A stretch of DNA of 64,000 bases. Source: Echinarachnius parma (taxonomy: Eukaryota; Echinodermata; Echinoidea; Clypeasteroida; Echinarachniidae). How positions within the stretch are numbered: the stretch's first letter is position 1; each line of letters begins with the position of its first letter. The translations under genes and the position numbers were made by a program. This document shows, in pieces, positions 3,013 to 47,101 of the stretch. The notes beneath the pieces are model-generated. The model saw only the letters and a list, made by a program, of their open reading frames with translations, was not told where the DNA came from and ran no database searches. The stretch lies in the NCBI GenBank assembly GCA_037951105.1, contig JBAMJV010008234.1, forward strand, positions 30,846-94,845, read 5' to 3'.

Positions 3013-3030
3013 ACGTTGACCACTTCCTCA

Positions 3031-3601
3031 TTAAAGGACAATGAAATCCAGACAAATTGTTGTATGCACTATAAACAACTAAATATAATGAATAGTCTCT
3101 GAAAATTTGAGCACAATCGGTCAAAAAATAAGAAAACTATGGCTCTTTGAAAAGAGCCATGTATTTCTTCGAGTGACTCAAATTGGCAACGCACTCTGGC
3201 AAAGTTGTGGACAACTCCCCATACATTTTGTACACAAAATTTCAGTTTTGTTCAATTTTCTCAAAATTTGCGTTTACCCTTCGTTCGAGTTCAACATATG
3301 TTTTGTAGAATGCTTTTATACATAACATATCATGAGTTGGGGGAATGGAAAAATACGACTATGAAGAAAACTGTAAAAATGGGAACATTTGTGTACAAAA
3401 CATATGGGGAGTAACTTTGTCCACACACTTATCAGAGTGCGTTGCCAATTTGAGTTGCCCATAGGAATAAATGGACATCTTCAAAGAGCCGTAGTTTTCT
3501 TGGTTTTTACCCGATTATGCCCTAACTTTCAGAGATTATTCTTCTTAATCTCTTCAAGACTATGAAAGCAACATTTTGCTTGGGTTTTCATTGCCCTTTA
3601 A
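3031..3601. mobile_element. TTAA-flanked MITE with long inverted repeats
   Basis: Begins TTAAAGGACAATGAAA and ends as its near reverse complement TTGCCCTTTAA. Terminal inverted repeats extend roughly 190 bp each, including matching blocks TCAAATTGGCAACGCACTCT (left) and its complement (right). No transposase. TTAA at both ends suggests TTAA-specific insertion (piggyBac or Kolobok superfamily); the superfamily is inference. Confidence 0.8.
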
Positions 3602-5264
3602 TGCACACAAAGTTTTGAATACTCAAGAATGAGAAGTTCAACTTAGCTGTCAACGCATTGCAATGAGAACAAACATTAAACTGGGTAAGGGCATAAAGCA
3701 CTGATAACTGTCAAGGTAAATATTACCACTGCAAAAAGCAAATAAAGCAGATAAAAGTGAGAAGTGGTGTCTACATGCATATCTCTAAATTTAGATGTGG
3801 AGAATAAAAGAATGTGTTTGAAGTTTTGAACTTCATTGTTGTAATTTCTATTTCCATTATAATTCTTCAAATATTTGACTTCATGTCTGGACAGCGTCCA
3901 AAATAAATAATAGGTCTGACAAAGTTGTTTTATTGACTAGCATAAAACGAAATATGAAAGAAAATCAATTTTTGTAACATTCCATTGAAGATTTATAAAG
4001 GATATGCATTGTCATACATATGTGACTTTTCCTTAATGTATTATGGGATATTCCAAGGAAAAAAGTTTTGCATTGGACCCATAATGCAAATTTAAAGGGT
4101 TTTCATATAAAGTGATGGGGGCATTTCTGGTGCTAAATGGTCCTCCCCACCCCCGTGCATTTTTTTTCACTGAAATGTATAATTTATAATCTTTTCAGTC
4201 TGCTTTTAAATTTCTTTCTACTGAGAGGATTAGAAAGGGGAAAATTATTTTGAAGGGCTAATTTTCATAATCTTGCATTTAACAGCAATCTAAACTTGTT
4301 TTGCATAGATCTTCCAACTGCAACCGTATGTTTAAATGGGACATGTCCAATGTCAAAAAGAACACACTTTTCACTACAAAGAACTATTAATAAAGCGCTT
4401 TTGTACTCAGTCACGATTGATATAAATTTTCGCTTCTAAATATAGCGCTAAATCTAGGGTTTCGAGGGCAGTGTATTATTGATTTGCATATTTATAGATA
4501 TGAGAACTGGCGGTATGCCAGATCATGTGCACTCAACAAACATTTCATCGGAGTACCCATAATGCAATTGGCCATGCCACGCCCCCTAATGTACTCCTTC
4601 GCTATTACAGACCTTGTACATATAATTATAAACCATTCATCCAATACTGATTTTTTTATTTTTTATAATTAGTATGATGAAAGTAAAAACAAGTTTTGTA
4701 TCTCTTCCCTCTTTTTTAATCTTCCTCTATGTCTGCTACTTAATTCAAATTCAAATTTTCAAATTCAAATTTTATTAACACTCTTCATAAAAACATTACA
4801 ATGTACAATTTACATGCCAAAGAGACATTACATAGTAAAAAGTAAAAATTGAAAGAAAAAAAAAAAATTTATATATACAAATACACATTATGGGAGTGTT
4901 TGGAGTAGGCAGAAAGGAGGGAATTCCTTATATGAAAGCCTACCCCATTATACAGATACAAAACAAAATAAACATACGATAGAAACACACGAAAACACAT
5001 GAAAAACGTACTGAGCAAAATATTCATCCGACACTTATTCTCTTCTTTTTTAATCTGATGAATTAACAAAAACATTTTGTATCTGTTCCCTGTTTTTCAA
5101 TCCTGCTCTATAGGTTGTATTACTAAGTGAAAAATACACTAGCAAACCAAGTTCATCCTACTATATTTTTGTTTTTAATCCAATGAAACAATAAATACAT
5201 TTTCTGTCTGGTCATCTTTTTACAATTCTCCTCCAGCTTTGATACCCGTCGACAAACCACTAGC

Positions 5265-5860
5265 AAACAAATTCAAGAAACACAATATTCCACATAATAT
5301 ATTACAACTTTATGCGCCACCGAGTCGCTGAGATGTAATGAAAACCAAAATGCCCCAGTATAAAAACATATTTATTAAAGCAAATCTAATGTTTTCCTCT
5401 ACCACAATTAATTCCAATTTTGTTTCTAAATAATTATATAGCTTTGGTGATAATCACGCTACAAAATGTAGTTAGCGATCAAATTTGAGCAACATAGTTT
5501 CTTAATATATTTTATAGTGTGCCAACTGTATAGCTGTATGAAACAAAAAATCTATTCCTTCATACAAAGACATTCTAGACCAATCTAATGTTCTCGGCCA
5601 CAATCAAGTTTGCTTCTAAATATATATAGCTTAGTGAAGAAAAAAAAATCACAAAACGAATCTGAGCAAATACAATATTCTACAACATTGTACAACTGTA
5701 TGTACCACCAAGACTTTATAAAAGAAGATGTATCATTTAGAATGAAAACCACCATGTCCCTCAGTACAAACACATTTGAGCAAATCTAAATGGTCTGGGC
5801 CACAATCAATAACAAGTTTGCTTCTAAATATAGCGCTAAATCTAGGGTTTCTGGGCAGAG
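5265..5860. repeat. Tandem array, about 198 bp period, three units
   Basis: Related segments beginning near 5383, 5581 and 5780 share CAATCTAATG, CCACAATCAA and TTTCTAAATA words at 198-199 bp spacing. A lone related block (TATAGCGCTAAATCTAGGGT) occurs at 4440 and again at 5829. Confidence 0.75.
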
Positions 5861-7480
5861 AGCCAAGCTGCATATTTACACACCAGTTGGCAGACGGCCA
5901 GTGGAGTTGAATTTGTATGTATACATGCACATATTACAATACCAACTGGTCACCAAATACCCATCCAGGAACCAATTAAACTTGCAGTCACTCCCTACTA
6001 CACCCCCCCCCCCCCCCCCCCCCCACCCCAAGCAAGCTGTTAATACACATGAGTTGGCAGGCGGCCAGTGGAGTTGAAATGTATGGATGCACATTTTATG
6101 ATACAAACTGGTCACCAAATACCCATCGAGGAACCAATTAAACTTGCGTTTTTTGTCACTCCTTACTGCATCCCCCCCCCCCCCCCCCCCCAGCCAAGCT
6201 GTATATTTACAGAGTTGGCAGGCGGCCAGTGGAGTTGAATTGTATGGATGCACATTTTATGATACAAACTGGTCACCAACTACTCAGCAAGGTACCAATT
6301 TAATATATTTGCGTGGTCTGTGACACTCCCTACTACACCCCCCCCCCCCCCCACACACCACCACCACCACCAGAGGTTATATGAATCTGTGTCAACCCTT
6401 CACTGTGCAGTACTGGTAACTTTTGACAAATTCATATGTGGTGATTGTATTATTTAGATATGAACATAATACATTTAATACAACCTGGTCACCAAATAAC
6501 CAGCTAGGTACCAACTACATTTGTGTTTTGTTTTTGTGTCACTCCTACTACATCCCCCCCCCCCCCCCCAAAGGTTTCCATATGAATCTGTGTCACCCGT
6601 CACTGTGCAGTATTGGTAACTTTTGAAAATGCAATTGATGGTGATCATATTATTTAGAAATTTATATGAACATTATACGTTTTTAATACAAACTGGTCAC
6701 CAATTATACCCATCTAGGTACCAATAATATAAATTTAAAAAACAATTTTTTTCCCCTATCAATCCCTACTTCATCCCGAAGGTTATATGAATCTGTGTCA
6801 CCATTCACTGTGCAGTACTGGTAACTTTTGAAAATGTAATTTATGGTGGTCATTATTATTTAGAAATTGATATGAACATCATACATTTAAAACTGGTCAC
6901 CAATATACCCATCTAGGTACCAATAATATTTTTTAAAAAAATTCTCTTTTTTTTTTCTTTTTTTTTCTGTCAATCCCGAAGGTTATATGAATCTGTGTCA
7001 CCATTCACTGTGCAGTACTGGTAACTTTTGAAAATGACCATTTATGGTGGTCATTATTATTTAGAAATTGATATGAACATCATACATTTAAAACTGGTCA
7101 CAAATATACCCATCTAGGTACCAATTATATGATTTTTTTTGTTCTGTTACTCCCTACTTCATCCCCTCAAAGGTTATATGAATCTGTGTCACAATTTGCT
7201 GTGCACTAACAACCTCGAAAGTTGTAACTTTGAACATTGAATTATGATGATCAAATTATCTAGACATGAACATCATAAACTGGACACATAATACCCATCT
7301 AGGTACCAATTTTGCTTGCATTTTTTGTCACTCCCTACTGCTTCATCACTTCTTCAACAGCCCCCAAAGATAAGTGTGAATATGTGCAATCATTCACTGG
7401 GCAGCAGTAACAAGATATTATATAAATGGTAACTTTGGAAAATGTAATTATGGTACAATCAAATTATTTAGACCCGAATG
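5860..7480. repeat. Tandem array, 160-217 bp period, about eight units
   Basis: The anchor AACTGGTCACCAA or a close variant recurs near 5945, 6107, 6268, 6485, 6691, 6892, 7094 and 7271. Each unit also has a tACCCATCTAGGTACCAA-like segment. The first units contain a long poly-C run; later units lose it and gain GGTTATATGAATCTGTGTCA. Units diverge progressively rightward. Confidence 0.85.
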
Positions 7481-8333: not shown

Positions 8334-8735
8334 TGCGAATATATCATGGGTGGTGGATATCTATCTCAATACATGATAAGGGATAGATTATCAAAGTATT
8401 TTGCAAGATAATGTTGTCTGCAATATCATAGTAATAGTATGTATGTAAACATGGCCAGATTACACGTGGCCGACCCACTTTCATATCTGCAATTATTCAA
8501 TAATATGCTCCAAACGTGTCTGACAAACAAAAAATGATGCAAATATTATGGGTGGTAGATTATCAATCTCAATACATGATAGAGGATAGATTAACAAAGT
8601 ATTTGCAAGATATAATGTATGTTGTCTACAGTATGATAGTATGTATGTAAATATGACCAGATTACACATGTCCCGACCCAATTTCATATCTGCAATGAAT
8701 CAATAATATGCTCCAAATGTGTCAGAAAAACACTA
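8334..8735. repeat. Tandem duplication, about 200 bp, two units
   Basis: Unit 1 (about 8334-8525) and unit 2 (about 8534-8735) share CTCAATACATGATA, GTATGTATGTAAA, CCAGATTACAC and CAATAATATGCTCCAAA in the same order. Confidence 0.8.
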
Positions 8736-9563: not shown

Positions 9564-9637
9564 AAAGTGACCCCAGAGGACCAAATGTCCACTTTGAACC
9601 CTGAGAATACATCCTGTCCGTTGGCGATCTCTGGGGT
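9564..9637 (-). pseudogene. Truncated exon 5 copy (3' half, donor kept)
   Basis: A 74 nt copy of the 3' half of exon 5, 216 bp downstream in transcript order, with the donor ACTTT|GTAAGT. It reads [20 protein letters not shown] then GVT. The three differences I see from exon 5 over the shared stretch are all silent third-position changes (GTC/GTG, ATC/ATT, TCC/TCT). A possible acceptor TTATTAG precedes it; joined directly to exon 4 it would stay in frame but lack most of the activation loop. Confidence 0.85.
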
Positions 9638-9779
9638 CTAATAATATACCAGTCTATCGTTAGAAAGTCTTTAAAATTCTAATTTCAGGCTAATTACAGG
9701 TGCTCCATCAATAATTATATACAATCAATACAAAAAATAATTAAAAAACAAAATGAGGAGAAAGAGACGAAATACTTAC

Positions 9780-9916
9780 AAAGTGACCCCGGAGGACCAG
9801 ATGTCGACTTTGAACCCTGAGAATACATCCTGTCCGTTGGCGATCTCTGGGGGCTGGAAGGCCGGCGAGCCCTGGCTCGTCCGACAGGCGTCATCTTTGG
9901 TGAACTGGTCTAGTAG
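9780..9916 (-). CDS. STK11: STK11/LKB1 exon 5 (activation segment)
   Basis: Encodes residues 219-263 and two bases of the next codon: [20 protein letters not shown], then [20 protein letters not shown] and SSGVT. These are the activation loop, the PPE form of the APE motif, and the helix F aspartate of DIW. Human LKB1 is nearly identical across [18 protein letters not shown]. Length is 137 nt, equal to human as I recall. The acceptor is CATAG|CTACTAG and the donor is ACTTT|GTAAGT. Partial copies sit on both sides. The next exon (human YNITTGLYPFEGDN region) was not found to the left, so the gene is cut by the window edge. Confidence 0.96.
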
Positions 9917-10036
9917 CTATGGATGACAAAGAACAAAAGAAGGAGAGGCGAAAATGCATCAATATTTAAAGAACTGTAAGTAAATTGGTCTAGTACATGT
10001 AGATGTAACAAGACAAAGGAGCTTTAGAGGGGATCT

Positions 10037-10088
10037 GCGAGACCTGGCTCGTCAGACACGCGTCATCTTCGGTAAACTGGTCTAGTAG
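10037..10088 (-). pseudogene. Truncated exon 5 copy (5' part, acceptor lost)
   Basis: About 52 nt matching the start of exon 5, 172 bp upstream in transcript order. It reads LLDQFTEDDACLTSQVS. The bases before it are ATCGGG in place of CATAG, so the acceptor is destroyed. Neighbouring intron sequence is also duplicated. A dead relic. Confidence 0.8.
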
Positions 10089-10879
10089 CCCGATTCAAAA
10101 ACAAAAGAAGAACTGGGGGGGGAACTGTATCAATAGTTTACTAACTTTAACTGGGCTGAAAAAAATAACTTCAGAGGAAAAAGGCACTGTCAATAAACAG
10201 AAAGTCAATAATTCACAAAAATACTTTCAAATGTATTTTATAAAATACAAGGAAGAGATTTAAACAAACAAAAATGCATTTTCACAGAAATTCTGAGAAA
10301 TAAAAATAATCTTTCAGTTGGTTTGCAATTGAAATTTTCATAAAATTAAGAACCAAAAGGCCATTTTAATTGTGAAACTAAATTTGTTAAGACTTTCTTT
10401 AGAGCAAAAATCATATAAAAATCATGTCTTACAAATTACATTGTTTTGGTATACAAAAAGTATGTCCATTTTCTTTCACCAATTTTGATACATCTGTACA
10501 GTTACATTGTATTGTAAGTTATAAAGCTGTAGGCCCTTGATATACATGTATTAAAGAAATCAAGAAACATATAATATGCTTGAAAACTACAAACACCGAC
10601 ATTTTATTCAAGTTTTTGTAAAATACAATGGTCAAAACGTCAGCCTGCATAAACATAAATTGTAGTTATGACCCACGACTGGGAGCTCTTGTAAAGGATC
10701 GTTGAAGCGGTGGGCTTATATCTTGGTTGCAAATCGCCCCAGGCCCTTGATTTCTATAATTGAGAATAATGACTGCGTACTTCGGCCAATTAATCATCAT
10801 TAGTGTGGCAGGTAATATTTATAGACAGCAATTATTCCTTGGTGTAACAATCATCCTTTAGAACAAAGGGTAAATACAT

Positions 10880-12370
10880 ACATGTGTTCCTATCAAGGAT
10901 GTAATTTTGTTAGTCAAACATTTGTCCCTAGTGGGTATTCAGCAAATCCTTAAACATATTGGAATAACTGTGCATAAATGTTCAGTTTCAAGTAAAATTC
11001 TGTATTGACATTGACAATAAAACAAATTTGTGAGTAAATTACTAATTGATCAAGGACTATAACATGTCAGTCCAATATTTGTCACTAGCTTGGCAATGCA
11101 TTTAGTAAATCCTTAAACTAATTGAAATAACTGTAAACTCATGCTGCACAAACTGTCAAGTAAATGTTGATGACATTGCACTCAAATTTATACAAAATAA
11201 CCTTTAAATTATTTCACATTCAATAGATTTGTGGGCAAGATTCTATCAAAGACTAATTCGTCAGTCCAACATTTGTCACTAGCTTTACAATGCATTCAGA
11301 AACGTCTTTGAACTTATTGCAATAAATGTGCATAAATGTGCATATATCATAATGTGCTACATTGACATTGACAATGCACACAAATTTGTCAATATTATCT
11401 TTAAATTATTACAAAATGTATATGTCCAATAGATTTGTGGTAAAGTATTTGTTACAATCCACAAGATTTTCAGTGACTTCCAATAATTTTTCTTTCTCAA
11501 GGATTTACGTGTCAATCATAATTCTCCACCAGCTATGCAACTATTCGCAGTAAATCCTTCAACTAATTGAAACAACTGTGCATACTTGTCAAGTTATGCT
11601 CAAATTTGTCAAAATTATATAAAATTTTACTTTTATTGCAAATAGATTTGCGGGCGAGTTTATGTCAAGGATTTTCTTGCCAATCATAATTCCCCACAAC
11701 CATTCAGTAAAATCCTTCAACTAATTGAAATAACTGTGCACACTTGTCAAGTTCAATTCCATTATAAAAAATATGCTCAAATTTGTCAAAATTACCTCTA
11801 AATGATCTTTTATTAGTCAAGCAAGTATCGTCAAATATATTTGCGGGTGAGTTTACACCATGGATTTATTTTGACAGTTCATCATTTGTCACTGGCTTTT
11901 CAGAAAATCCTTCAACTAATTGAAATAAATGCATACCTGTCAAGTTCAATGCCATTTTGAAAATATGCTCAAATTTGTCAAATTATCTCCAAATGATCTT
12001 CTATTACCCATTCATCATCCAATATATTTTGTGTAGTCTTCATTGTAGTTACTGGCTTTGCAATGTATTCTCTGAAAATACTTCAACTTATTGAAATAAC
12101 TGTACATACTTATCATGAAAATATATTGTCAAAATTATCTCAATGTTATATTAGACAAGTATGTATCGTCAAATAAGACTTGCGGGCGAGTTTCTTTCAT
12201 GGATTTATTTGACAGTTCCAACATTTGTCACTAGCTTTGCAATGTATTCATCAAATCTTTAAACTAATTGAAATAACTGCGTGTTCTGTCAAATGGTAAG
12301 CTTATTAATGGTGCACTCAAATCTATAACATTTATAGAATATAGGTTAACAGCAAATCCTTTGAATCATA
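10880..12370. repeat. Tandem array, 158-248 bp period, about eight units
   Basis: The anchor AAATCCTTAAACTAATTGAA, with small changes, recurs near 10945, 11110, 11303, 11551, 11709, 11906, 12078 and 12253. Units also share TTTGTCACTAGCTTTGCAAT and TTTGCGGGCGAGTTT segments. AT-rich, no frame. Confidence 0.85.
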
Positions 12371-12486
12371 TAAATAAATGAAATGAAATGTAATGTCATT
12401 CAACTTTTAAGTATACACTAACAAATGTGCAATTAATAATACTTATTGGGAGATTTGCATATACATTTGTTTTTTAAGTCTTGGCT

Positions 12487-13399
12487 TTAACCCTAAAAAG
12501 GCCGGGCTATTTGAGGTCTTCAGCAGGCCGGGGGGGGGGGGGGCATTATGGCCCCCCCCCCCCCTAAGATCTCGGCCGCGGGGCGGCCGATCGCCATGAA
12601 AAATTGCACGCATGATAAGTGAAGTGTATAGAATACAATGGTAATTTTAATTTTTTAAGTCTTGGCTTTAACCCTAAAAAGGCCGGGCTATTTGAGGTCT
12701 TCAGCAGGCCGGGGGGGGGGGGGGGGGCCATTATGGCCCCCCCCCCCCCCTAAGATCTCGGCCGCGGAGTGGCCGATCGCCGTGAAAAATTGCACGCATG
12801 ATAAGTGAAGTGTATAGAATACAATTTTAATTTTTTGAAAAATTCATTAATTTGCATATTTATGGTAATTTATGCAAATAAGGTCATAAAATTCATATTT
12901 TTACCCATAAATCATATATTCTTCATAATTAAACTCTGGTTTTCACTACATATATTCTTTAGAGCATTTGGAATAATAATACGACAATTTGGAAGAACCA
13001 GGTTCTTCCTTATGTTGTCTATTGTTTTTATAATTTCTTATGTATTTCTTTGTTTTTTTTACTTATGTATTTTATTGTTTTTGTTTTTTTTATTTCTAAC
13101 TATAATTCAACTATTTTGAACCCCAAAACAAACATATAAAATGTAAACAAGACCAAATAACCAATGATATACTTCCTTTTACGAAAACTGATATTTCCAT
13201 ATGTTTTGTACACAAATCACGAAATTGAGCGATTTTCGGGCTGACAAAAGGTCACGTGACTTCGTAACGGTAGGTCCGATTTTCAAATTTTTTGTTTTAA
13301 AATATGCGCAAGACCCAAAAGAAAAAAGTCACTAAGCAGCGGCGCGTCATCTTACCGCGTTTTGGAGCAATAAAAAAAATCGCGGAGGGGGGGGCCATT

Positions 13400-13430
<31 letters not shown>

Positions 13431-13445
13431 CCTTTTTAGGGTTAA
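12487..13445. mobile_element. piggyBac-like non-autonomous element
   Basis: Flanked by TTAA (12487-12490 and 13442-13445). It begins CCCTAAAAAGGCCGGG and ends CCGGCCTTTTTAGGG, perfect inverted termini. The CCCTA start and TTAA target agree with the piggyBac superfamily. The left 181 bp, including the terminus, is tandemly duplicated (second copy from 12668). It contains palindromic poly-G/poly-C around CCATTATGG and a 29-base C run at 13400-13428. No transposase frame. Confidence 0.8.
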
Positions 13446-14825
13446 AAGATAACTACTAGCTATGGACATGTTTGTATCTTGTAATAATATATCCAGTCAG
13501 AGAAGCTATAAATCATTATCTATAAGAGTGACATAGTTTTGATCCTCCTCACCCTAAGGTAATCTCTCAAACAGAACTTGACATTTACAGTAGTACCCTT
13601 AATTAAATAAAATTGATGAGACATCAAAAATTGGTCTTAAGACAAGTTCCAGGGGGGGGGGGGGGAGAGTAATCTTTTTAATTGTTCAGGCAACAAGATA
13701 TATCCAATAAAACCACACACACACAAATAAAGAATTTCTGATCGGGAAGAACATTGTGGAGCAACAAAACAGAACCTGCAGTCATTTCTTTGTAAATAAG
13801 ACGAGTAATAAATCCAGGCGTTGTGAGGCTACAAACATAAATAGAACAGAAAACGACCGTGTCTGACAGAGTGATTGATGAAAATATAACCCCCCTTACC
13901 GAGAAAGTACCCCTGTTGAGAAAGAGAAGGGCGTAAGTCACTTTTTGTACTTTGGAGATAATCATGGTTAAATTTTGTTAGCTAAGTAGAAGCCAACTGA
14001 AACTTTTATTTTTTAATTTGATGAATGTATTTTCCAAAATTAGGCAAAACTTATTATCTGAAAAAATTCTGCACCACATCTAGAGGCTCGGTACTGCAAG
14101 ATGGTATGCGGAACTCAGTTTAGTCATAAATCGACTTAGCGCCCCTATCGCTCTCACCCGACCAGGTGTAATTTAGATGCAGAACTACCTTCACCCTCTA
14201 CCTCCCTCCACGCTATAAAGTAACCCAAAGTTCATGCAATTTAGGGCAAGGCTTTTCATATTCATGTCACACTCTTCAATGCACTTGAACTTAAAGTACA
14301 TTTAATGTATGCATGCATGCGTTTCAAAACTGCAACATTTTATGGCAAGGAAAAATACAAAGTTATTTTTGAAGGGTTACTTTTCAATCTCGCCTTCAAG
14401 AAAATAGCACTCTAAAATATGTTTTGCGTTGAACTTGATGCAAATTTATGGGCGTCTTTTGGTATTTTTAGGGGCTCTTTTGGGCCTTTCTGGGGCTAAA
14501 TTGTCCTGAACTCCTGTGTATTTGTTTTCACTAATTCATCACTAAAAAAAAGGGACAATTTTGTGAAGAAGAATGTTGCTCGATTTGCCGTCCTTCCAAC
14601 AACGAACTAGAGCTCTGTTGCCACTCCCGTAAGTTCATGTTGTTTTTTACCAATTGTGTAATTTCTATCATGCACAATTGTATAGGCATGTATGCATGCA
14701 TTTCAGACTGACCACATTGAATACATAATGTACAATACTCCCACTCAGATTAATTCCTGGACATTGCTTTTCAACCAATGTATTACACCTCAGCCCCATT
14801 CATACATATTCCTGTTGGTTCTTAC

Positions 14826-14897
14826 CTCTGCAACACCAACGTCTGATATCTTGAGCACACCACCAGTTGTTAACAGCAGGTTGCATGGTTTGATGTT
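14826..14897 (-). pseudogene. Truncated exon 4 copy 2 (catalytic Asp to Asn, DFG to DVG)
   Basis: A further 72 nt copy, another 196 bp downstream, again with the donor intact. It reads [20 protein letters not shown] then GVAE: the position matching catalytic D195 is Asn and DFG is DVG. A possible acceptor is TTCATAAG. The frame is open and both ends would be phase 0. Any product containing this segment in place of the normal one should lack catalysis. More diverged than copy 1, so probably older. Confidence 0.85.
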
Positions 14898-15021
14898 CTT
14901 ATGAACAAACAAATAGCTGTACACCAAATTATATAGTAGTCCCACTCCTTTAAACTCATGTTGGTTTCAACCAATGTATTACACTTCAGCCCCATACATA
15001 CATAATAATGTAAGTTCTTAC

Positions 15022-15093
15022 CTCTGCAACACCAAAGTCTGATATCTTGAGCACACCACCAGTTGTTAGAAGCAGGTTGCTTGGTTTGATCAT
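15022..15093 (-). pseudogene. Truncated exon 4 copy 1
   Basis: A 72 nt copy of the 3' half of exon 4, 196 bp downstream in transcript order, with the donor GCAGAG|GTAAGA intact. It reads [20 protein letters not shown] then VAE. The codon matching the catalytic aspartate is now ATG, preceded by TAG, so TTCATTAG could act as a new acceptor. Its length is a multiple of three and both ends would be phase 0, so an extra exon from here would keep the frame. No expression evidence is available; a relic is the default reading. Confidence 0.85.
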
Positions 15094-15154
15094 CTAATGA
15101 ACAAACAAATAGCTGTACACCAAATTATATAGTAGTCCCACTCCTTTAAACTCA

Positions 15155-15424
<270 letters not shown>

Positions 15425-18313
15425 TCACAGAATTTGAAGAAAAAAATTGCTTATTGTTTTCAATATCCACCTCCCCCGCCTCCAAGCGGGGTGTGGGGGG
15501 GGGGGGGGGGGGGGGGGGGTGGCAGTAGAATTCTAGAAATAGAATCTGAACAAATGTGTATCATGCAACATTGTATGCTGATATTCAATTCAGGGCTATT
15601 ACTGGCGAGAACATGGTTATTTATTTACATTATGAAAATGCAATACTGTAATATCAAAGATATCTGATTTGTTATATGAAAGAATATTAGAACAGTTATT
15701 GTTGTAACTCAGGGAACTTCTACAAATACAACCATTGAGTGATTTCAAGTACGGTGCTGGTGTTGGTGTTGGTGTTAGCAGCCCATATTTGCTGTTAATC
15801 CGAGCTCTAACACCAGCGTTCGGATTAACGACGATACCGATACCAAGTATCGATAGCCTAACACCAGCATATCGATAGCTCGACGCCAATAAATCCGCCC
15901 GAAAAGCACAAAATTGTTGTATATTTCACGTAAAAAAAGCCCGAAATCAATGTACTCTGGCAAAATATACCATGGACGTGAGAGTATTTATGAAGAACTC
16001 TCATTTCTAACATGTACAATTTTACAATAAGCCTTATTTTTTTCAAAAACGTTATTTTTTTAGCGTTTCGGTATGATATTTGCAAGATTTGCGTGACGGC
16101 CTGTGGCTGTGCCATGTCGAATGGCTATGTGCACAATTCAATTGTTTTGAGCTCAAACTTTCGTTCCATTATTTATTCGTAATTGTTCTTAACTAATTGG
16201 GACAAGATCTCAATTTAGTAAGTGTAATCTAGGCTTTTATATTCTAAAGTATAGACTATTCTCAAACAAAATGACCGGTTCATAAAATTGATCTATTACG
16301 TTGACACTTTCACTCATATCTTACTTTTCCTGTTAAGTATTACTGGAGAAAAATAAGAAAAAAAACAACAACCAAAGTATTGTTTTGAATTTAATTTTAA
16401 GTAGTATTATGATCACGGTTTTATCTCAAAAACATTTTCCATATGCAAAACGTAACAAAGAACTAGTCCTAGAGGAGAGTAGCCTACAGCCTAGATCTAA
16501 GTATAAGGTTAGGTAATTTAACAGGTGACTAATAATTTTAAAGTAGACCTAAGAAAAAAAAAACCCGTATCTTACTATCTTAGTATAAATAATTAGAGGA
16601 TTATGTTATATTCTGATCTTAATTAAGGGTATTTCATTTTATCTTTTGTTTATTGACCGTGATCATTGTTGAAGTCTACTGATCGACCGACACTGCTTGA
16701 AGCATCAATTAGCCAGATCTTATTTAATAATCATACCATTATTAATATTAGTTTATAATGTAAATATTGGCACTGCCATTATTATTAGTCTAATTGTTTG
16801 CTAAATTTGTATTTTACAGATTTGAAACTTTGGATATAAAGATATGTCACATATTTTAAAAAGGAAACAAGGGTTAATTTAGAGAACTTATAGTTATATT
16901 ATAGTAAAACTAAAAATAAGTTGAACGAACAAGTTATTACTAGCAGCAGCAATAGCACAGGTAGCCCCAGTCATACGAGCTAGCTCTGCATAGCCTCCAC
17001 GGTTCTACCTAGGGCTCGGGGCTAGGCCTAGACTGAGGTTTATGACTTAACCTAAACTAGACCTTCTGGAGTGTAATTCTCTACTCATGTCCTAGTCTCT
17101 AGATACTAGCTCTAGTCTAGAGCTTAGGCTAGCACTTCGATCGATTGTACTAATTCCTATTAAAATTATAAAAAGTATCATTCTAATCATAAATCTAGGG
17201 CGGTGTATAAACTTGTCTTGCTATTATAGTATTGCTAATTTTTTTAATCTTACATAAGTACGAGCAAAAGGTAGTACTAGGCTTACTACAATACAAGATA
17301 TGCCTAGATGTCTAGATTTAGGCCGCACTTTAAAGTTGACTAGCCTAGCCCTAGCCTCTAGTACTACCTCTAGGTCTGGCTATGCCGGCTGCAAGCGTCA
17401 TAAATAGTTACTCCGAATTCTAGTTTAGTAACAATTTGTACTAGTTTGACCTACACTAGAGTAGAGACAGAGTAAGGCAATTGTCTAGTCTCTATTTGAG
17501 TGTGAATTTATTAAACCAGCGAAATGATAGGGCTAGGCCAGGCCCCAGGCCAGGCTATATTGTATTTTTACTTTAGGATTTAAGCTATTAACATTTCTGC
17601 TACAGTACAGGGAAAATTCACAATTTATATTATTACCATACTACTACTATACTATTTAGCTTAGTTATAAAAACTATTATAATTTACTGAACTAATAAAA
17701 TAGCTGCAACACCACTACCAATAACCAAGTACCGTCCATAGAGTGCCTCAGACTCAGTAAAACAGACAACAAAATTAAACAAAATCATTTGGTACATGTC
17801 TAACTTTCTAGAGAGTCTATTAAGTCGAATTTCTAAGCCGATCAAATCTTGATTATCATATCAATCATGACATTAAATTTAAAATGAAGTGATGAAGTCC
17901 TAGTCTCTAGACTCGAGTCTAGACCTCATTCAGAGTCAGACTCAGTCAGACTCAGAGTCAGTCCTACTCTAAAATCTAAATCGAGTTGAAGTCTAAGGTA
18001 AGTAATATCGATATAATTCTAATTTACAAGTGACTTACATTACATGACACAGTCCGTCTATTTTCAGCAAATTGATGATAGAAAATCCAGTTGGAAAAGT
18101 AAATGATACTGCTAGCACATTATTATTGGTATTGATCCACGTCAATATGCACTTGTTTACTATTTACGTTAACGATAACGATTACCGTACGTTATGGAAT
18201 TGCAATTCAAGTTGTGCATTAATGTTTACGTTTATTTTGAATTTCGAGTACACAATTACAATTACAATACCCTAATTAATTAGCATAAATTAGACTCGAG
18301 ATCAGACCTTGTA

Positions 18314-18662
18314 TGGATTTATCAACTCACATAATTATCCAGGGCATACTTTCCATAACAAATTTATCCTGAGATAAATTGCGTTTATCATAAGATGTAG
18401 CGAATACGATTAATTGTTGTTTTTCATCATGTATGTGGTACTAATATTGTCTACTGCTATATTGCCAATACTACTTCATGTAATACAAAAATCATTAGTA
18501 ATAGCAGCATGAAGTAGTATTACGTAGTTGACAATATTAGTACCACATACATGATGAAAAACAACAATTAATCGTATTCGCTACATCTTATGATAAACGC
18601 AATTTATCTCAGGGTAAATTTGTTATGGAAAGTATGCCCTGGATAATTATGTGAGTTGATAA
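18314..18662. repeat. Large near-perfect inverted repeat
   Basis: The left arm (about 18317-18480) and right arm (about 18508-18662) match with about one mismatch over the outer 135 bp, diverging only near the centre; the loop is about 27 nt. It lies inside the hAT-like element and directly abuts a second palindrome. Confidence 0.9.
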
Positions 18663-18775
18663 AGCTTTTACGAGTTTTGTATAGTATTTCTATTTATCAT
18701 CATTTGTTGTACGATATATTATATCGTACAACAAATGATGATAAATAGAAATACTATACAAAACTCGTAAAAGCT
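18663..18775. repeat. Perfect palindrome, 56 nt arms
   Basis: The arm from AGCTTTTACGAG to GTACGATATA (18663-18718) is matched without error by 18720-18775 around a single central base (18719). A perfect, spacerless palindrome of this size suggests a recent origin or an assembly artefact. Confidence 0.95.
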
Positions 18776-19730
18776 GTGATATAATGTCACGGTTTGCAGT
18801 TCATAGTCATACTAACTAATTTGTAGATCTATCTGTCCTCTTTTAATTTGCAACCCACAATTAAACACCTATCATGTAAGTAGAATTTGATAAATGTACA
18901 TCAAAACATTTTAAAATCAGTAAACTATCCTTCTTTACAATACCGCCAGCTGATCATTGACCTCTAAAATCGCTAACACCGAACTTGAAATGACGAGTTT
19001 CTTAATCCCTAGGGTTTGGTGTTAGTGAATAGGGAAATTGCATGCAAATTGTTAACACCGACTGCGGAGCTCGGTTCAGCAGACGACGCTCGACACCAAC
19101 TACCGGATGCGGAAGTTGGAATGCCGTCACGGATCCGAGGTCAAATCTCTAACACCGAGGCATTTCAAGTACGGTGCTAGAGGCTGGTGTTAGTGTTGCG
19201 ATAACACCAACACCAACACCAGCACCGTACTTGAAATCACCCATTGTCTTACACCATTACTCCGCAAAAAACAAATTACTTAATTTTCTGTGTTCTTTTT
19301 AAAGCTCCCAATGGATCATGCTAAATTTGTACTGCTAATGTTCATTACCTCATCTCTCTCTTCTTTACATGTAGTGCTTATGAATTGGTAATAGTCCCTA
19401 ATGGCTCGGAAAAATGATGAAAATTGGAATTGGTAAGTCACAGTTGAACTGCTAGCAATATTACTAAAGTCTATGAATAATGGAGATTTAGTCATTCGCT
19501 CATAAATGATGATTTAGATGTAGATGTAATGCAAATCTCAACAACATACATGTACATAGGTTTTGTAGTGTGCATTCGTGGGAAAAGGTTTATTGAAGAT
19601 GATGAATAAAGAAACAGATTTGGAGTTTTAAATAGGACGAAAAGTAGAATAATAAAAGGTGTTATGACTCAGAAGAACCTATCAAAGACAGGCATCTGTA
19701 CTTATACTGTGAACTAAAAAAACAAATCAC

Positions 19731-19815
19731 AGTTAATGTTTTTTAAATATGTCTTGAAAGTAAAACAATACTGTTTTACTTTCAAGACCTATTTAAAGAC
19801 ATACATTGTTAATAG
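19731..19815. repeat. Snap-back inverted repeat
   Basis: GTCTTGAAAGTAAAACA and its complement TGTTTTACTTTCAAGAC are separated by about three bases, with weaker pairing further out (AATGTTTTTTAAATAT and TTTAAAGACATACATT). Confidence 0.8.
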
Positions 19816-19946
19816 CAGAATAGACATTGAATAGACAATGTGGCACAATGGAAACAAATAGAAAAACACTTTGCAAATGAATGTCTGCTCTCCCCTTTGC
19901 AAAGCCTCGTTAAAAAAATAAGAAAATAATGGACGAATGGACAGTC

Positions 19947-20146
19947 AGTGGTGTAAGCCAGGAATTCTGCAAAGGGGGGGGGGGGGGGGGAGCTCCAACA
20001 ATTAAAAAAACAAAAATCCCCCTTCTACCAGCTAACAAGCAATCAAGCCAATCAAGTTCAAAACAAATTTGCCTGAGGATGAGGGGGCGCCTCAGGACCA
20101 GAAGACCCCCCCCCCCCTCCCTCATACACACTCGCTACGCCACTGT
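19947..20146. mobile_element. Short MITE with CAGTGG ends
   Basis: Starts CAGTGGTGTAAGCCAG and ends CTCGCTACGCCACTG, imperfect inverted termini. It contains a poly-G run and a complementary poly-C run that can pair. No coding capacity. Confidence 0.65.
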
Positions 20147-20419
20147 GGGCAGTGGGCAGTAGTGTATAAAGATGGGAGCATTCAGGCAAGTGCATGCAGG
20201 GAAGGGTAATCAAATTAATGGCCCAGGGGAGGGCAGCCAATGAGAGAGAAAGACAAAAACACTGCCCTCGGATGTTACTTGTTGTACCATGCATGTATCA
20301 TGATACAAGAAAAAAAGCTGCATCACTTTGGTGATCCCTCGCACCTTATCCTTTGGGTTTGTGTCCTTCTGAGTTCTGACCATCACAAGCATTGTAAAGG
20401 GACAAACAAACAGCACAAG

Positions 20420-20500
20420 GGCTTTCCGGCTCAGTTGGTAGAGCACTGGTTGAGCCAACTTTAGCAATCACGAGGCATCAGGTTCGAATCCCGACCTATT
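20420..20500 (+). repeat. tRNA-derived SINE head, unit 1
   Basis: Pol III A box GGCTCAGTTGGTAGAGCACT (20428-20447) and B box GGTTCGAATCC (20481-20491) at tRNA spacing. The acceptor-stem strands do not pair, so this is a SINE or tRNA pseudogene. Confidence 0.75.
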
Positions 20501-20696
20501 TCCTAAATGCTAATTTTCATTTATAAAAAGTAAAAGATTTGCATATTCTTTCTTCATCAAATTAATAATCGTGCTCCATAGTTTTAAGCCATGGTTTACA
20601 TTTAACCCATTCGGAACTGGTCTCAACAATATGCGGGCTTGGTTTTATGTAGAATACAATGTTGTAGCAAAATCAGTCAGTCCTTAACGGGTTAAG

Positions 20697-20770
20697 GAGC
20701 TTTCAAGCTCAGTGGTTAAAGCACTGGTCTAGAAATCCTACAGTCTCGGGTTCATATCCTAACATGTGCG
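20697..20770 (+). repeat. tRNA-derived SINE head, unit 2
   Basis: A box AAGCTCAGTGGTTAAAGCAC (20705-20724) and degraded B box GGGTTCATATCC (20748-20759). The downstream tail resembles that of unit 1. It ends about 75 bp from the exon 3 donor. Confidence 0.65.
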
Positions 20771-20844
20771 GATTCCCAATTTTTCTGTGCTAATTGTTAT
20801 TTTTCAAATCTCATTTTCATTACAAGATCAAGTTGAAAACTTAC

Positions 20845-20934
20845 CCATGAGCTTGCCAGGCGGGGAACTTCTTGGCAGTGGCTGAATCCAGCATGTCCTG
20901 CAGGCCACTCACGCAATACTCCATGAACAGATAC
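20845..20934 (-). CDS. STK11: STK11/LKB1 exon 3 (hinge, start of C-lobe)
   Basis: Encodes the last base of M144, residues 145-173 and two bases of G174: the hinge segment [17 protein letters not shown] followed by [10 protein letters not shown]. Human LKB1 reads MEYCVCGMQEMLDS here. Length is 90 nt, equal to human as I recall. The acceptor is TTCACAC|G, ending in AC, with the U12 branch element TTCCTTGAC at 20944-20952, about 10 nt from the junction. The donor is GG|GTAAGT, an ordinary U2 site. A truncated copy lies 194 bp upstream in transcript order. Confidence 0.96.
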
Positions 20935-20964
20935 GTGTGAACAGTCAAGGAACAAATCAGGCAT

Positions 20965-21060
20965 TTTATAATAATAGTAATAACAACAATAATGATAATG
21001 ATAATATTAATAATAATAATAATAATCATAATAATATTAACCATAATCATAATAATAATA
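20965..21060. repeat. (AAT)n-rich microsatellite
   Basis: Imperfect AAT/ATA repeats lying exactly at the broken end of the exon 3 copy, so probably involved in the duplication breakpoint. Confidence 0.85.
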
Positions 21061-21128
21061 ACTTCTTGGCAGTGGCTGAATCCAGCATGTCCTGCAGACC
21101 ACTCACGCAATACTCCATGAACAGATAC
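21060..21128 (-). pseudogene. Truncated exon 3 copy with a second U12 acceptor
   Basis: First 69 nt of exon 3 duplicated 194 bp upstream in transcript order, with one mismatch to the real exon across the shared coding part. The U12 branch element TTCCTTGAC (21138-21146) and the AC acceptor (21130-21129) are intact. The copy breaks off in AAGAAGTT at an (AAT)n tract, so it has no donor. Read on, it meets TGA four codons after AAG AAG. Use of this acceptor would probably truncate the kinase. Near-identity suggests a recent event. Confidence 0.9.
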
Positions 21129-21516
21129 GTGTGAACAGTCAAGGAATTGAACCAGACATTTTATATTATCAAAATAAATAAATAAATAAATAAATAATAC
21201 TAATACTAATAACGACAAGTATGATCTTGGTCTTATTGGTCTTGTCCATGATCAACACCCCCCCCCCCTCCCTGCCCCCGCTAACACAACTAAACAAGTG
21301 TTCTCTGCTTCTGCATGATTGGTTTGGCCACGAACACTTGTGAATCTTGTCATTTCATCTATAAAAAATTATGTGTCATAAAAGAGTACTGTAGCTAGAA
21401 AAAAGACAGGACAAAGGATGATCATTGAGTTATATACAATAAATATCCTTGATAAGCAGTAATTGGGAAATCTATAAATTTTCACAAATCTATTCTATAA
21501 TGTTCCAAAAGGATAT

Positions 21517-21600
21517 ATTTTTTGCTTCTCGTCATTCTGTAGGACGTCGACGAGCTGAATGATGTTGGGATGGTGAAGTCTCTTCAGAAGCTGGATCTCC
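21517..21600 (-). CDS. STK11: STK11/LKB1 exon 2 (ends at a U12 AT-AC donor)
   Basis: Encodes the last base of codon 116, residues 117-143 ([20 protein letters not shown] then QNDEKQK) and two bases of the codon for M144. This is the alpha-C helix region, including the conserved Glu that pairs with the ATP-binding lysine. Length is 84 nt, equal to the human exon as I recall it. The acceptor is TTGCAG|G. The 3' end is followed by ATATCCTTTT, the consensus U12 AT-AC donor, and not by GT; only this boundary gives the conserved QK-M-Y junction with exon 3. Identification is near certain. Confidence 0.96.
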
Positions 21601-21861
21601 CTGCAACAACAAACAAAGAAAAAAAGGAGGAAATTATATTTAAATACAATTAATAAACTTTTTTTTTTTTAAATGATGCTCATTTTGATTTATTTGATAA
21701 AACTAGGCATGCATTACAACTGACAATAAACACATTTTATTGTCAAGTGCTTAGAGATGATTATCAATCATATTAGGCGCTATATAAACCGCAAACATTA
21801 TTTTTTTTTTTTTTTGCAGTAGATGGTGGCAAAATTGGTGTCAAAGAAGAGGAAAAGCAAA

Positions 21862-21905
21862 GAATGATGTTGGGATGAAAAAGCCTCTTTAGATGCTGAA
21901 TCTTC
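21862..21905 (-). pseudogene. Truncated exon 2 copy
   Basis: About 44 nt resembling the first half of exon 2, 305 bp upstream in transcript order, with the acceptor TTGCAG|G kept. It reads KIQHLKRLFHPNII against [14 protein letters not shown]. It ends before the U12 donor, so it cannot be a complete exon. More diverged than the exon 3 copy. The conserved glutamate of helix alpha-C has become lysine. Confidence 0.8.
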
Positions 21906-23779: not shown

Positions 23780-25040
23780 CAATCTCACACTACATGTATA
23801 TTTCTAGCCAATCGATACCTAAACTGACATTTACAAAAAGAAATGATGATAATAACACGCACAAGAGTTCAAGGTGAAATACAGTCTGTCAACAAAAAAT
23901 GCACCTTTAGCCAATCAATACCTAAACTGACATTTAAAAAAACAAAAAAACAATACAGGGTGGCCCAAAAAAAACGGAACGGGGCACTTCCCAAAATATA
24001 ATACCAGAATGTTTATGTTCATCGGATAGGGTGTCCTTTCCAATGAAAAACAATACCAAGAACAGTAATTTTGGTCAGGTCGTTTTTGTTTCAGGACGCA
24101 GTGAGTGAGACCATGTCAGGTGCCGATTTATGTCGATTTCGACCTAGTCAATGCCAGTTTAACCACACTCCTTGCCCGTAATACCATTCAGCGACCAGGC
24201 CCATTCTCTCGGCACACGGCTGAGTGCACATTAACAATAGTGCGCGATGCTCAACGATATGAACGGCGGTTCGTGCGATTCATCAAGCGCTGGCTCAATG
24301 CAAATTGACAAAAAAGAGAACCTGACATGGTGTCACTCACAGGGCCCTAAAACAAAAACTACACAACCAAATTGACTGTTCTTGGTATCGTTGTTCATTT
24401 GAAAAGAAACTCTATCCGATGGACATAATACATGTGTTACTTTATTTTCGGAAGTGCCCCGTTCCGTTTTTTTTGGGCCACCCTGTATTAACAGACAAGT
24501 TCAACACAAAAGGCATTTTGTCAAGTAACAATGCACGCTTGTCAGTCAATACCTAAAGTAACTGACCTACATGTAGTTACAAAAATAATAATATTACACA
24601 AAAAAAGGATCATGGCAAAATGCATTTTGTCAACAATGCAGGTTTGCCAATCAATACCTAAAACTGACAGAATAAAATAATAATATTATTACCAAACATT
24701 GTTTGTGGCAAAAGGCATTTAGTCAACTACAACAAGTTAAGTTAACAATGCATGTTAGCCAAATAATATTAACAAACAACTGCTTGTGGCAAAAAGGGAT
24801 TTTGTCCACTATAATCAGTTAACAGATGCACGTTTGCCAGTCAATATCTAAACTGACCAAGTACAAAATAATAATATTAAAAACACAAAAAGGTTCATGG
24901 CTAAAAGCATTTTTGTCAACAATTCATGTTAGCCAGTCAATACCTAACCGACCAAGAAGAAAAATTACAATATTAACAAATAAGGGTTCATGGCAAAAGG
25001 CATTCTGTAAACAAAAAATGCATGTCTAAATATAGCCAGT
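23780..25040. repeat. Tandem array, about 100 bp period, interrupted by a MITE
   Basis: The anchor AGCCAATCAATACCTAAACT and variants recur near 23809, 23911, 24540, 24647, 24747, 24835, 24930 and 25034, with CATGGCAAAAGGCATTTTGT between them. The mariner-like element at 23956-24485 splits the array. Confidence 0.85.
23956..24485. mobile_element. mariner-like non-autonomous element (530 bp)
   Basis: CAGGGTGGCCCAAAAAAAAC at the left and its complement at the right, with TA on both sides (23954-23955, 24486-24487), typical of Tc1/mariner. Inverted repeats continue for about 170 bp at roughly 75% identity. The core of about 190 bp has an open frame (24105-24308, starting MRPCQVPIYVDFD) that I do not recognise; it could be a remnant of the parent element or captured sequence. 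Confidence 0.85.
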
Positions 25041-39403: not shown

Positions 39404-40033
39404 TTAAAGGGGTAGTTTAGTTTTGTAATTTTGTATACCTGTCGAGCATGGTGGAGTAATAACTATTAGTTTATAATGTTACTGTCCAGGTTTGGTTACT
39501 AAAGTTTAGCCTTACCAAAACTGCACATCACAATTTTTTTGTGAGGTAATGAAAAACTGAGTGTCGAATTTGAGAGAACATGCAATTTTAATGGCAGAAT
39601 AAACTTTATTTGGTCAAAATCGGTCCAGAAACGGCTGAAATATCAATAAATATATTTGATCTTATAAATAATTATTTGGGGCCCAAATAATTCGATGATT
39701 TTTTCAAAAAATAAAAAAAATGCTTACACTTTTTCAAAAATTTTCAAAAGCGTTTTTTAAATAAGTGTTGATGATCTATCTACTTATCATTATTTCAATA
39801 GAACATCACATGCATTATTTTGTATGAAAAATGGTTGAAACCAATGCCTTTTTAGAAAGCGCCCTCTTGTGTTTTAATGGCTCTTTTTGAATGATAACAG
39901 GCTTTTTACTTAGTCGTTTGTAATTTTGTATACCTGTCGAGCATGGTGGAGTAATAACTATTAGTTTATAATGTTACTGTCCAGGTTTGGTTACTAAAGT
40001 TTAGCCTTACCAAAACTGTACTACCCCTTTAAC
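39404..40033 (+). mobile_element. TTAA-family MITE, copy 3 (end duplicated)
   Basis: TTAAAGGGGTAGTTTAGTTT at the left, CTACCCCTTTAA at the right. The segment TTGTAATTTTGTATACCTGT through TTACCAAAACTG occurs at both 39424-39524 and 39914-40018. The right-end block has therefore been copied into the left end, probably by recombination between two copies. Confidence 0.9.
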
Positions 40034-41288: not shown

Positions 41289-41970
41289 CCGTAAAACTCC
41301 GTGTATAAGGCGCACCCGTGTATAAGGCGCACCTCCAACTTTCTAAAAAAAAAAAAAGGACACCCTGTATTTTTTTTTTTTAGACACCCTGTAGTGCTGT
41401 TGGAATACTTACATCGCTGGTCTAGGGCATATCAAGGGCTTAATGTCAATTGTAGCTTTCATCATCATATGCATTTTTTCACATACAAAATAGTGGTTAG
41501 TACAAAAATTGCACACATTGAGCAATAACACTGGTGCTCATAAATATTCATATTCTTATTCATGAATATTCATAAGCACTTATACTCATTCAATATATGC
41601 AATTTTCTTACTTAACTAACAACTATTTTCAATTATGAGCAAAATTTATAACCACTGGTTAGATAATTGCATATATAATGAGTACCTGCTGCTCACGAAT
41701 GTATGAATATTCATTAGCTGCAGTATTTGCTCAATAAACTTGCAATTTTTAAATTTGTAACCAATATTTGTTTTGTGTGAAAAAAGTATATGTTGCTGAA
41801 TGCTACAACAGACAGCAAGCTTTTGTCATGCTCTACACCAGTGTAATATGCATTGAACATGACTACAGGGTGTCCAAAAAAAATTGGCTATACCTGTGTA
41901 TAAGACGCACCCCCGACTTTGAAATTTTTTCCGACGGAAAAAAGTGCGCCTTATACACGGAGTTTTACGG
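41289..41970. mobile_element. TA-flanked inverted-repeat element (682 bp)
   Basis: CCGTAAAACTCCGTGTATAA at the left and its exact complement at the right, TA on both sides (41287-41288, 41971-41972). Inner blocks GTGTATAAGGCGCACC and GACACCCTGTA also recur in inverted order on the two sides, giving terminal repeats of about 100 bp. No transposase. Consistent with a Tc1/mariner or pogo-type MITE. Confidence 0.85.
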
Positions 41971-45393: not shown

Positions 45394-46046
45394 TGCGCAT
45401 GCGTGAGGTCGCAGGTCAAACTTTGGCGTACGAGCCAAGATGTACTCAATGTTAACCTAACCGCCTGGCATATACATCGCTCGAAATCTTGCAGGAACAT
45501 GTTTGTAGATGGGCGATGAGGTGTTTTATCCTCTTTAAGCAGATTTTTTTTAAATTTTGTTTACTTGTACTGCACCCTAAAATACCTATGTACGACGGCG
45601 CTACACAAAATTGCTATAAAAACAATGATAACCTACCTCAAATTGATTATTTATGTCGATTGTCCTTGTTAGAATCCCGCTGTGCGATGCCGACGGATCG
45701 AAAAAAAAAGCCGGATTCTAACAAGGACGATCGACATAAATAATCAATTTGAGGTAAGTTATCATTCTTTTTATAGCAATTTTGTGTAGCGCCGTCGTAC
45801 ATAGGTATTTTAGGGTGCAGTACAAGTAAACAAAATTTAAAAAAAATCTGCTTAAAGAGGATAAAACACCTCATCGCCCATCTACAAACATGTTCCTGCA
45901 AGATTTCGAGCGATGTAACATGTATATGCCAGGCGGTTAGGTTAACATTGAGTACAGTGGCCTGGCTTATATGTATTAGTCAACCGATCGCCACTTACGC
46001 GCGGAACCGGAATAAAACCTCGCCTATATATCCCAGCATGCATTGC
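45394..46046. promoter_or_regulatory. Promoter-type motifs flanking the inverted repeat
   Basis: TGCGCATGCG (45394-45403) matches the NRF1 site, and TCCCAGCATGCATTGC (46031-46046) is a strong match to the ZNF143 site. Both are typical of CpG promoters. Located in STK11 intron 1 on repeat DNA. Promoter activity is inference. Confidence 0.35.
45441..45956. repeat. Near-perfect inverted repeat, arms about 240 bp
   Basis: The left arm (45441-45677) and right arm (45713-45956) match almost exactly around a 35 nt loop; the main difference is about 7 extra bases near the right arm's end. Both arms carry, reading outward, CAATTTGAG followed by a splice-donor-like GTAAGT (right) or GTAGGT (left). Confidence 0.92.
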
Positions 46047-46754
46047 CGATGACTTTGGAGGCGACAGGACAATTTTGAATATTTGTGCGAAGCCGTTTGG
46101 GATTAATCATCAATTTGAGGCAAGTTATTATTCTTTTCATATAATTTCTATGTAGCGCGCAGATAAAACGCACTTTTGTTCTCTAGAAAAGGTTAACCAA
46201 ATACAAAAAAATTATAATTAAAGGTGATAAAAACACCTCATCGCAAAAACGCTACACCATTTTGATCGTCAGTAATTCACAGCTCTGTGCTACGCACAGA
46301 GCTGATCATAGTTAGTGTCATGTAGGAACAATTTTCTTTGCTTTGCAATTCAACATACATGTGTATTCACTTTACCAACAGGAAAATTCCTGAGATTAGC
46401 CTTGGATTATAGCAAATCAACATTTCCCCCTTGTCTGAAATTGTAATCAAAGATTATAAAAGATAAAAAGAGTGAAAAGTTAAAACAACGTTTGATAGAA
46501 ATGTTTAGAGCGAAATTCAAAAGGGTGACACTTTTTAAATAGAGGGAACAAACATAATGAAAATAAATGAAATATTGTCATTGAAATCTGAATTGAAACT
46601 GAAGTCTGAACAACTTGAACAATCAATGTCAATTAAAAGTAGAACTTTTTTGTATTATTATCTGGAAAATGTTGTTTGTAAAATTGTACTCATCTGAATA
46701 ATTTAAATGAAAATGGTACGACTCTCAGTCTCAATCTTATAATTTTATCAATAC

Positions 46755-47101
46755 CTTTTCACATTCTGCTCTCCATTCGGGATCCTTTTCAGCTTCTTCC
46801 TCTTGAGAATTTTCACGGCTCTCCGGGACAGGGTTTCGGAGTCGAGCGCCTCTTTCACCTTGCCATACGAGCCCTCCCCGAGCGCATCGCCCATCAGGTA
46901 CTTCCCCACCAGCTTCGCACGCTTCCTGCGCGGCTGATAAACAATGTCAGCCGAGTCCACTCGGTGTATGAAAATGTGGGCATCGTCGTCGTCTTGGAAG
47001 ATCGAGAAGTGATCATGTTCGCTCAGCCGCGCCCAGTGCGGTGGGATATGATTCACGTTATCCTCATCAAGGCTTTTAGCGAGCATTTCTGTATCCACCA
47101 T
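46755..47101 (-). CDS. STK11: STK11/LKB1 exon 1 (N-terminus and kinase N-lobe start)
   Basis: First coding exon of the serine/threonine kinase LKB1, which with STRAD and MO25 phosphorylates the activation loop of AMPK and related kinases. It encodes residues 1-115 plus two bases of codon 116. Seen: a divergent acidic N-terminus; the LKB1-specific block [18 protein letters not shown] (46-63), whose basic run matches the vertebrate nuclear-localisation segment; the glycine loop GEGSYGKV (75-82); and the ATP-binding lysine in AVKILK (K97). The start is the ATG at 47101-47099 in a strong Kozak context (ACC ATG G). The frame stays open for 14 codons upstream but offers only a TTG, so this ATG is preferred. 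The donor is AAAAG|GTATTG. The N-terminus is about 19 residues longer than human. Identification is near certain; the exact start is slightly less so. Confidence 0.96.

Follow-up and report, generated by a model that had tools for sequence, protein, structure and literature searches.

Truncated copies beside STK11 exons in Echinarachnius parma are very probably by-products of genome-wide local tandem duplication

The window analysed here, a stretch of 64,000 nucleotides of Echinarachnius parma DNA (assembly GCA_037951105.1, contig JBAMJV010008234.1, positions 30,846 to 94,845 of the forward strand, position 1 being its first letter), carries exons 1–5 of the kinase gene STK11/LKB1 on the minus strand, and each of exons 2, 3, 4 and 5 is accompanied by one or two truncated copies of itself. 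The question that the locus raises is whether these fragments mark something particular to one tumour-suppressor gene or something that this genome produces in general. The original prediction, made from the letters of the window, called four affected exons in one gene striking, and proposed either a locus unusually prone to small tandem duplication or exon fragments retained for a reason. Our analysis points elsewhere: the fragments are very probably passive products of small local tandem duplication throughout the genome, tolerated as the intact exon remains in place. Such fragments are a common feature of the E. parma genome, and a special status of STK11 is not supported.

The gene is true STK11/LKB1. 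The protein encoded by exon 1 has STK11 as its top match in PDB, with an E-value of 5.8e-36, the next non-STK11 match standing at 1.4e-5, and exons 2–6 and 8 match human STK11. Exons 2–5 lie in order, with borders refined from splice sites, and human STK11 exons 2–5 have the same lengths (84, 90, 133 and 137 bp). The exons in the window are as follows.

46754..46972, minus strand: kinase-coding part of STK11 exon 1, with 82% identity to human STK11 over 73 amino acids (E 7e-35); the exon continues further upstream
21517..21600, minus strand: STK11 exon 2, 84 bp, with the U12-type donor ATATCCTT directly after it
20845..20934, minus strand: STK11 exon 3, 90 bp, with TTCCTTGAC and an AC acceptor in front
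15218..15350, minus strand: STK11 exon 4, 133 bp, from the match to human STK11 and splice sites
9780..9916, minus strand: STK11 exon 5, 137 bp, from the match to human STK11 and splice sites

Read from the sequence, intron 2 has the donor ATATCCTT at 21517–21510 and the branch-like motif TTCCTTGAC with an AC acceptor at 20934–20945. By the U12 donor and branch consensus, it is a U12-type AT-AC intron. Human STK11 intron 2 is U12-type AT-AC according to PMC12366057, and the donor, branch-like motif and AC acceptor of that type are all found here; the difference is that E. parma has an extra branch motif and AC acceptor upstream, together with the truncated exon 3.

Six partial copies of exons 2–5 align to their parent exons, two of them within a tandem array.

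21862..21905, minus strand: upstream copy of exon 2, truncated, with acceptor and exon start kept; score 74.5 against a null maximum of 31; 8/44 exon bases changed
21060..21128, minus strand: upstream copy of exon 3, truncated, with a U12-like branch motif and AC acceptor in its flank; 1/69 exon bases changed; offset 194
15022..15093, minus strand: near downstream copy of exon 4, truncated, donor kept, in a 196-bp array; 1/69 exon bases changed
14826..14897, minus strand: far downstream copy of exon 4, truncated, donor kept; 7/81 exon bases changed
10037..10088, minus strand: upstream copy of exon 5, truncated, exon start kept, acceptor AG lost; 5/52 exon bases changed
9564..9637, minus strand: downstream copy of exon 5, truncated, 74 bp, donor kept, frame-compatible, with an AG immediately in front; 4/76 exon bases changed
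14769..15298, unstranded: 196-bp tandem array that includes the 3′ half of exon 4 and both exon 4 copies

In exon-centred searches (±3 kb), the copies score 74.5 for exon 2, 180 for exon 3, 192 and 171 for exon 4, and 146 and 88.5 for exon 5, whereas the maxima over 60 shuffled queries per exon are 27–31; the presence, coordinates and orientation of all six, as originally predicted, are borne out. A possible third fragment of the exon 5 start, at 9980–10020, scores 23.5 where the 95% null stands at 24.5, and was not counted. Exon 1 has no partial copy above the null within either 3 kb or 1.2 kb. Local direct pairs, at offsets of up to 700, number 45 in the window and none in 10 block-shuffled versions of it. 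Chance similarity as the source of the copies is ruled out by these two nulls.

The upstream copies (exons 2, 3 and 5) keep the exon start and the downstream copies (two of exon 4, one of exon 5) keep the exon end. This rule, which the original prediction had read as the signature of tandem duplication with one breakpoint inside the exon, is true of all six copies, and it is forced by a duplication geometry with one end inside the exon. Furthermore, in five of the six (exon 2, exon 3, both exon 4 copies and the upstream exon 5 copy), homology reaches past the kept exon border into the intron and breaks off within the exon at its other end, as that reading of the breakpoints expects. The ratio of homology length to period, taken from a hand-made table, is 0.23–0.79 in five exon events and 0.22–2.0 in 14 others, and the exon 4 copies tile at 196 bp.

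The first 30,000 bases of the STK11 contig hold the downstream part of the gene, with exons 6, 7 and 8. Exon 6 has five partial copies, three upstream, all cut near exon base 52, and two downstream (L005, 8214–7110); exon 8 has one upstream partial copy, and at exon 7 nothing rises above the null. That every internal exon is affected is therefore right for the window and wrong for the gene followed as far as exon 8, since exon 7 is free of copies. For the gene, the observation is nevertheless understated: six of the eight STK11 exons examined have fragments, the exceptions being exons 1 and 7.

The 45 local direct pairs cover 11.6% of the window and 28.8% of its 5–25 kb part, and several duplication clusters are wholly intronic, without any exon.

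5337..7339, unstranded: exon-free intronic cluster of local direct duplications, with units of about 162 and about 201 bp
8341..8732, unstranded: intronic tandem duplication, period 202
10890..12280, unstranded: intronic array of diverged units of about 157–196 bp
12470..12834, unstranded: intronic tandem duplication, period 181

The window's own assembly, 1.2 Gb in 14,790 contigs, served as the control genome. In 20 arbitrary stretches, each the first 10 kb of a contig picked by hand and not by a random generator, local direct duplications occupy a mean of 11.9% and a median of 8.8%, and are non-zero in 19. As control exons we used 20 PF00069 matches of at most 340 bases, taken in order of E-value down to C4239, with C4441 dropped as a twin of C3786; all are kinase exons of other genes. 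Truncated same-strand copies lie within 1.2 kb of 12 of these 20 exons, or of 8/15 once five near-identical pairs are merged, and the reverse-strand control for the same exons gives 0/20. At most of the positive kinase loci, the copies stay homologous past the kept border into the flanking sequence. Judged by eye on domain matches that are not exact exons, seven of the eight positive groups are consistent with the keep-start/keep-end rule. In addition, profile searches give a second, partial match next to a more complete one at C1746, C333, C7072 and C12035 (kinase) and at C1237 (myosin). The original prediction had itself held that similar copies beside most exons genome-wide would make the locus ordinary, and this is largely what we find, the comparison being one of kinase exons.

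We propose that a segment, often of 155–220 bp, would be duplicated head to tail. Where one end of the duplication falls inside an exon, the outcome would be an intact exon plus a truncated copy in the adjoining intron, and upstream copies would thereby retain the exon start and downstream copies the exon end. Truncating duplications would survive because the mRNA is unchanged, while those adding a complete exon of odd length or disrupting the frame would presumably be removed. The copy would then drift neutrally, and would stay recognisable longer than an intronic duplicate because its parent exon hardly changes, so that exons may seem more affected than they really are, a partial explanation of their excess. 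As to the molecular route, end joining with fill-in at staggered breaks, by DNA polymerase (Pol) α-primase/CST or Pol θ, may be involved, or else template slippage.

The substitution pattern fits neutral copies next to constrained exons. Specifically, 12 of the 24 codon changes in the six window copies are synonymous, against an expected share of 0.43 for a neutral copy of a constrained exon (p 0.54), and substitutions amount to 26/391 in exon parts and 37/286 in intron parts, a ratio of 0.51 against an expected 0.64 (assuming a tolerated share of 0.27, with the microsatellite part and gaps excluded). Read on as far as the parent donor, the upstream copies run into stops after 43, 26 and 32 codons; exons 4 and 5, read on to the donors of the downstream copies, do so after 65, 65 and 46 codons. 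The length class of the exon 4 copies would moreover disrupt the frame. With neutral-like codon changes and stops on run-on, the suggestion that the fragments are retained by selection, for a reason, finds no support.

Several results weigh against so passive an origin. Exons carry copies more often than arbitrary 250-bp segments do (8/15 versus 81/400, p 0.006; the counts are 71/400 for segments of 90 bp and 74/400 for 130 bp), and slower decay at constrained exons lifts the 20% background to only about 32%, by rough arithmetic. In the window, finding copies at four of four internal exons has a P of 0.0003 (independent placement, non-exonic duplications) to 0.001 (rigid shift) over its whole length, and of 0.003–0.019 given the density of the 5–25 kb part, with exon borders at most 4 bases off the refined ones; this background test taken alone would keep the STK11 locus interesting. 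The synonymous share expected if all codon changes were random is 0.27, which the observed share exceeds (p 0.019). At the kinase locus L035, an upstream copy of the exon middle breaks the keep-start/keep-end rule. Finally, the homology of the downstream exon 5 copy, 83 bp long, ends at donor position +7, with no intron homology detectable past that point (shuffle p 0.11–0.19), although a simple tandem duplication predicts it; the copy is no clean head-to-tail duplicate. For exon 5 we considered a nested insertion, in which the left and right fragments would derive from a single old exon into which a new copy had been placed; the two differ in divergence (5/52 versus 4/76 bases), in numbers too small to decide, and the homology to the downstream intron is absent.

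The best surviving alternative is that exons, or transcribed exon–intron borders, are truly preferred sites of tandem duplication, for example through chromatin, R-loops or replication. Since slower decay covers part of the exon excess and not all of it, a real preference is possible, and copies at all four internal window exons speak for it. So do the unit sizes: periods of 155–220 bp make up 12/21 events of at least 60 at the 15 kinase loci (22 events including one below 60) and 16/30 events on the whole STK11 contig, versus 15/56 in arbitrary stretches. In the hand-made table of the window, 12/19 events have such periods, the size class having been picked after viewing the window and later applied to the other loci. 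However, when only recent copies are counted (identity of at least 0.90 for exons and 0.84 for segments), the difference is 5/15 versus 60/400 and no longer significant (p 0.07), and the full count is inflated by the slow decay of exon copies in a control made up of kinase exons. On balance we consider a true exon preference unlikely.

Rather less probable is a more elaborate version, in which duplication is both size-selected and exon-preferring and steadily copies exon ends into introns, as raw material from which splice sites and short alternative exons could arise, the downstream exon 5 copy, as an STK11 exon 5b, being one candidate. Its size class of 155–220 bp resembles a nucleosome repeat or Okazaki length, and any connection between them is speculation.

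That STK11 is a hotspot apart from the rest of the genome is improbable. Local duplications take up 3–23% of nine 10-kb pieces of the STK11 contig, and the three densest pieces, at 22–23%, stand against the 11.9% mean of the arbitrary stretches, so that the idea of a locus unusually prone to duplication is partly borne out; six of eight exons affected, and exon 6 five times, also speak for a hotspot. However, 2 of the 20 arbitrary stretches are denser than those top pieces, and several control exons are flanked by arrays of 3–4 copies. Nor do four exons hit in one gene stand out as the original prediction supposed: with copies at 8/15 other kinase exon groups, finding them at 6/7 internal STK11 exons has a P of 0.09 and at 6/8 STK11 exons a P of 0.19, and both are therefore within expectation.

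It is more improbable still that some copies are functional, with 9564–9637 serving as an alternative exon 5b that would yield an in-frame, presumably inactive LKB1 minus 21 activation-segment residues. Among the six, only this copy combines a compatible frame with an immediately preceding AG: at 74 bp it belongs to the length class of exon 5 modulo 3, its AG is in the right phase, its donor is intact and its frame open, three of its four codon changes are synonymous, and its homology is confined to exon and donor. However, pyrimidines make up a share of 0.47 in front of its AG, compared with 0.74–0.79 at the four parent acceptors, three of four synonymous changes are too few to be significant by themselves, and the remaining five copies have stops or a wrong frame.

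Least credible is an assembly artefact: although the assembly keeps haplotypes separate (exon 1 also occurs, at 98%, on C6730, a contig of 95,150 bases that appears to end within intron 1, and there are the near-identical kinase pairs), in their exon portions the six copies diverge by 1.4–18% from their parents, which argues against a doubled assembly. Moreover, the copies sit close together in one contig, and in four of the five near-identical pairs the control copies are present in both members.

Partial intragenic exon duplications are known from human disease genes, where, as here, a breakpoint in an exon leaves one intact and one truncated exon; unlike those, the copies described here are old and inherited, with several to a gene, and common across the genome. 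PMC8355091 describes small tandem duplications as the commonest short (<100 bp) insertions in the human genome, made at DNA breaks via CST/Pol α-primase and end joining, with Pol θ as an alternative. The E. parma duplications are likewise head-to-tail and local and need no mobile element, but their units are mostly larger (155–220 bp in 16/30 contig events) and often present in 2–4 copies, and the junction chemistry is unreadable because divergence is too great. Local duplication has also been put forward as a mode of genome evolution, for fly binding sites less than 50 bp apart and kept by selection (PMC3188502). Neighbouring similar segments that were locally duplicated and then diverged by point mutation are common to both cases, whereas here they are exon and intron pieces of 100–200 bp with no sign of selection. 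Among the papers listed as matches, none describes truncated copies accompanying many exons.

What looked like an oddity of one tumour suppressor becomes a measurable genome property, local duplications being recognisable in about one tenth of the sampled DNA and truncated copies accompanying about half of the 15 kinase exon groups. In exons, tandem duplication has probes that decay slowly, and the process could be dated and sized by counting exon fragments. Annotation of such genomes should anticipate pseudo-exons adjoining real exons.

Copies carried by a transposon would be expected to share a flanking element or to have dispersed homologues. Queried against the genome, the exon 4 region matches its own contig only, in three places. 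A query spanning exons 2 and 3 has matches elsewhere for two of its short intronic parts only, mainly the ATA microsatellite, among the 40 of 1357 candidates that were scored, and most of its 110 matches are tracts resembling that microsatellite. An ATA microsatellite at 20968–21061 sits between exon 3 and its copy.

The near-identical kinase locus pairs are probably haplotypes. Two of them, L036/L037 and L032/L033, differ in the set or spacing of the truncated-copy arrays detected, and these arrays may be polymorphic.

Searches of the window for other genes gave no Rfam family at the gathering threshold and no tRNA, and among 10 of its 39 open reading frames run against Pfam, the sole meaningful match was that of the STK11 exon 1 frame to Pkinase, under its cut-off. 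Two 110-bp copies, 97% identical, lie at 39417–39526 and 39910–40021, 493 bp apart and without head-to-tail contact. A long TCC/TCT/CAT triplet repeat tract occupies 57692–58359. Large, near-perfect inverted self-matches, palindromic in structure, occur at 3029–3603, 18318–18775, 23952–24489, 41374–41883 and 45441–45956, and are possibly foldback or MITE-like (miniature inverted-repeat transposable element-like) elements.

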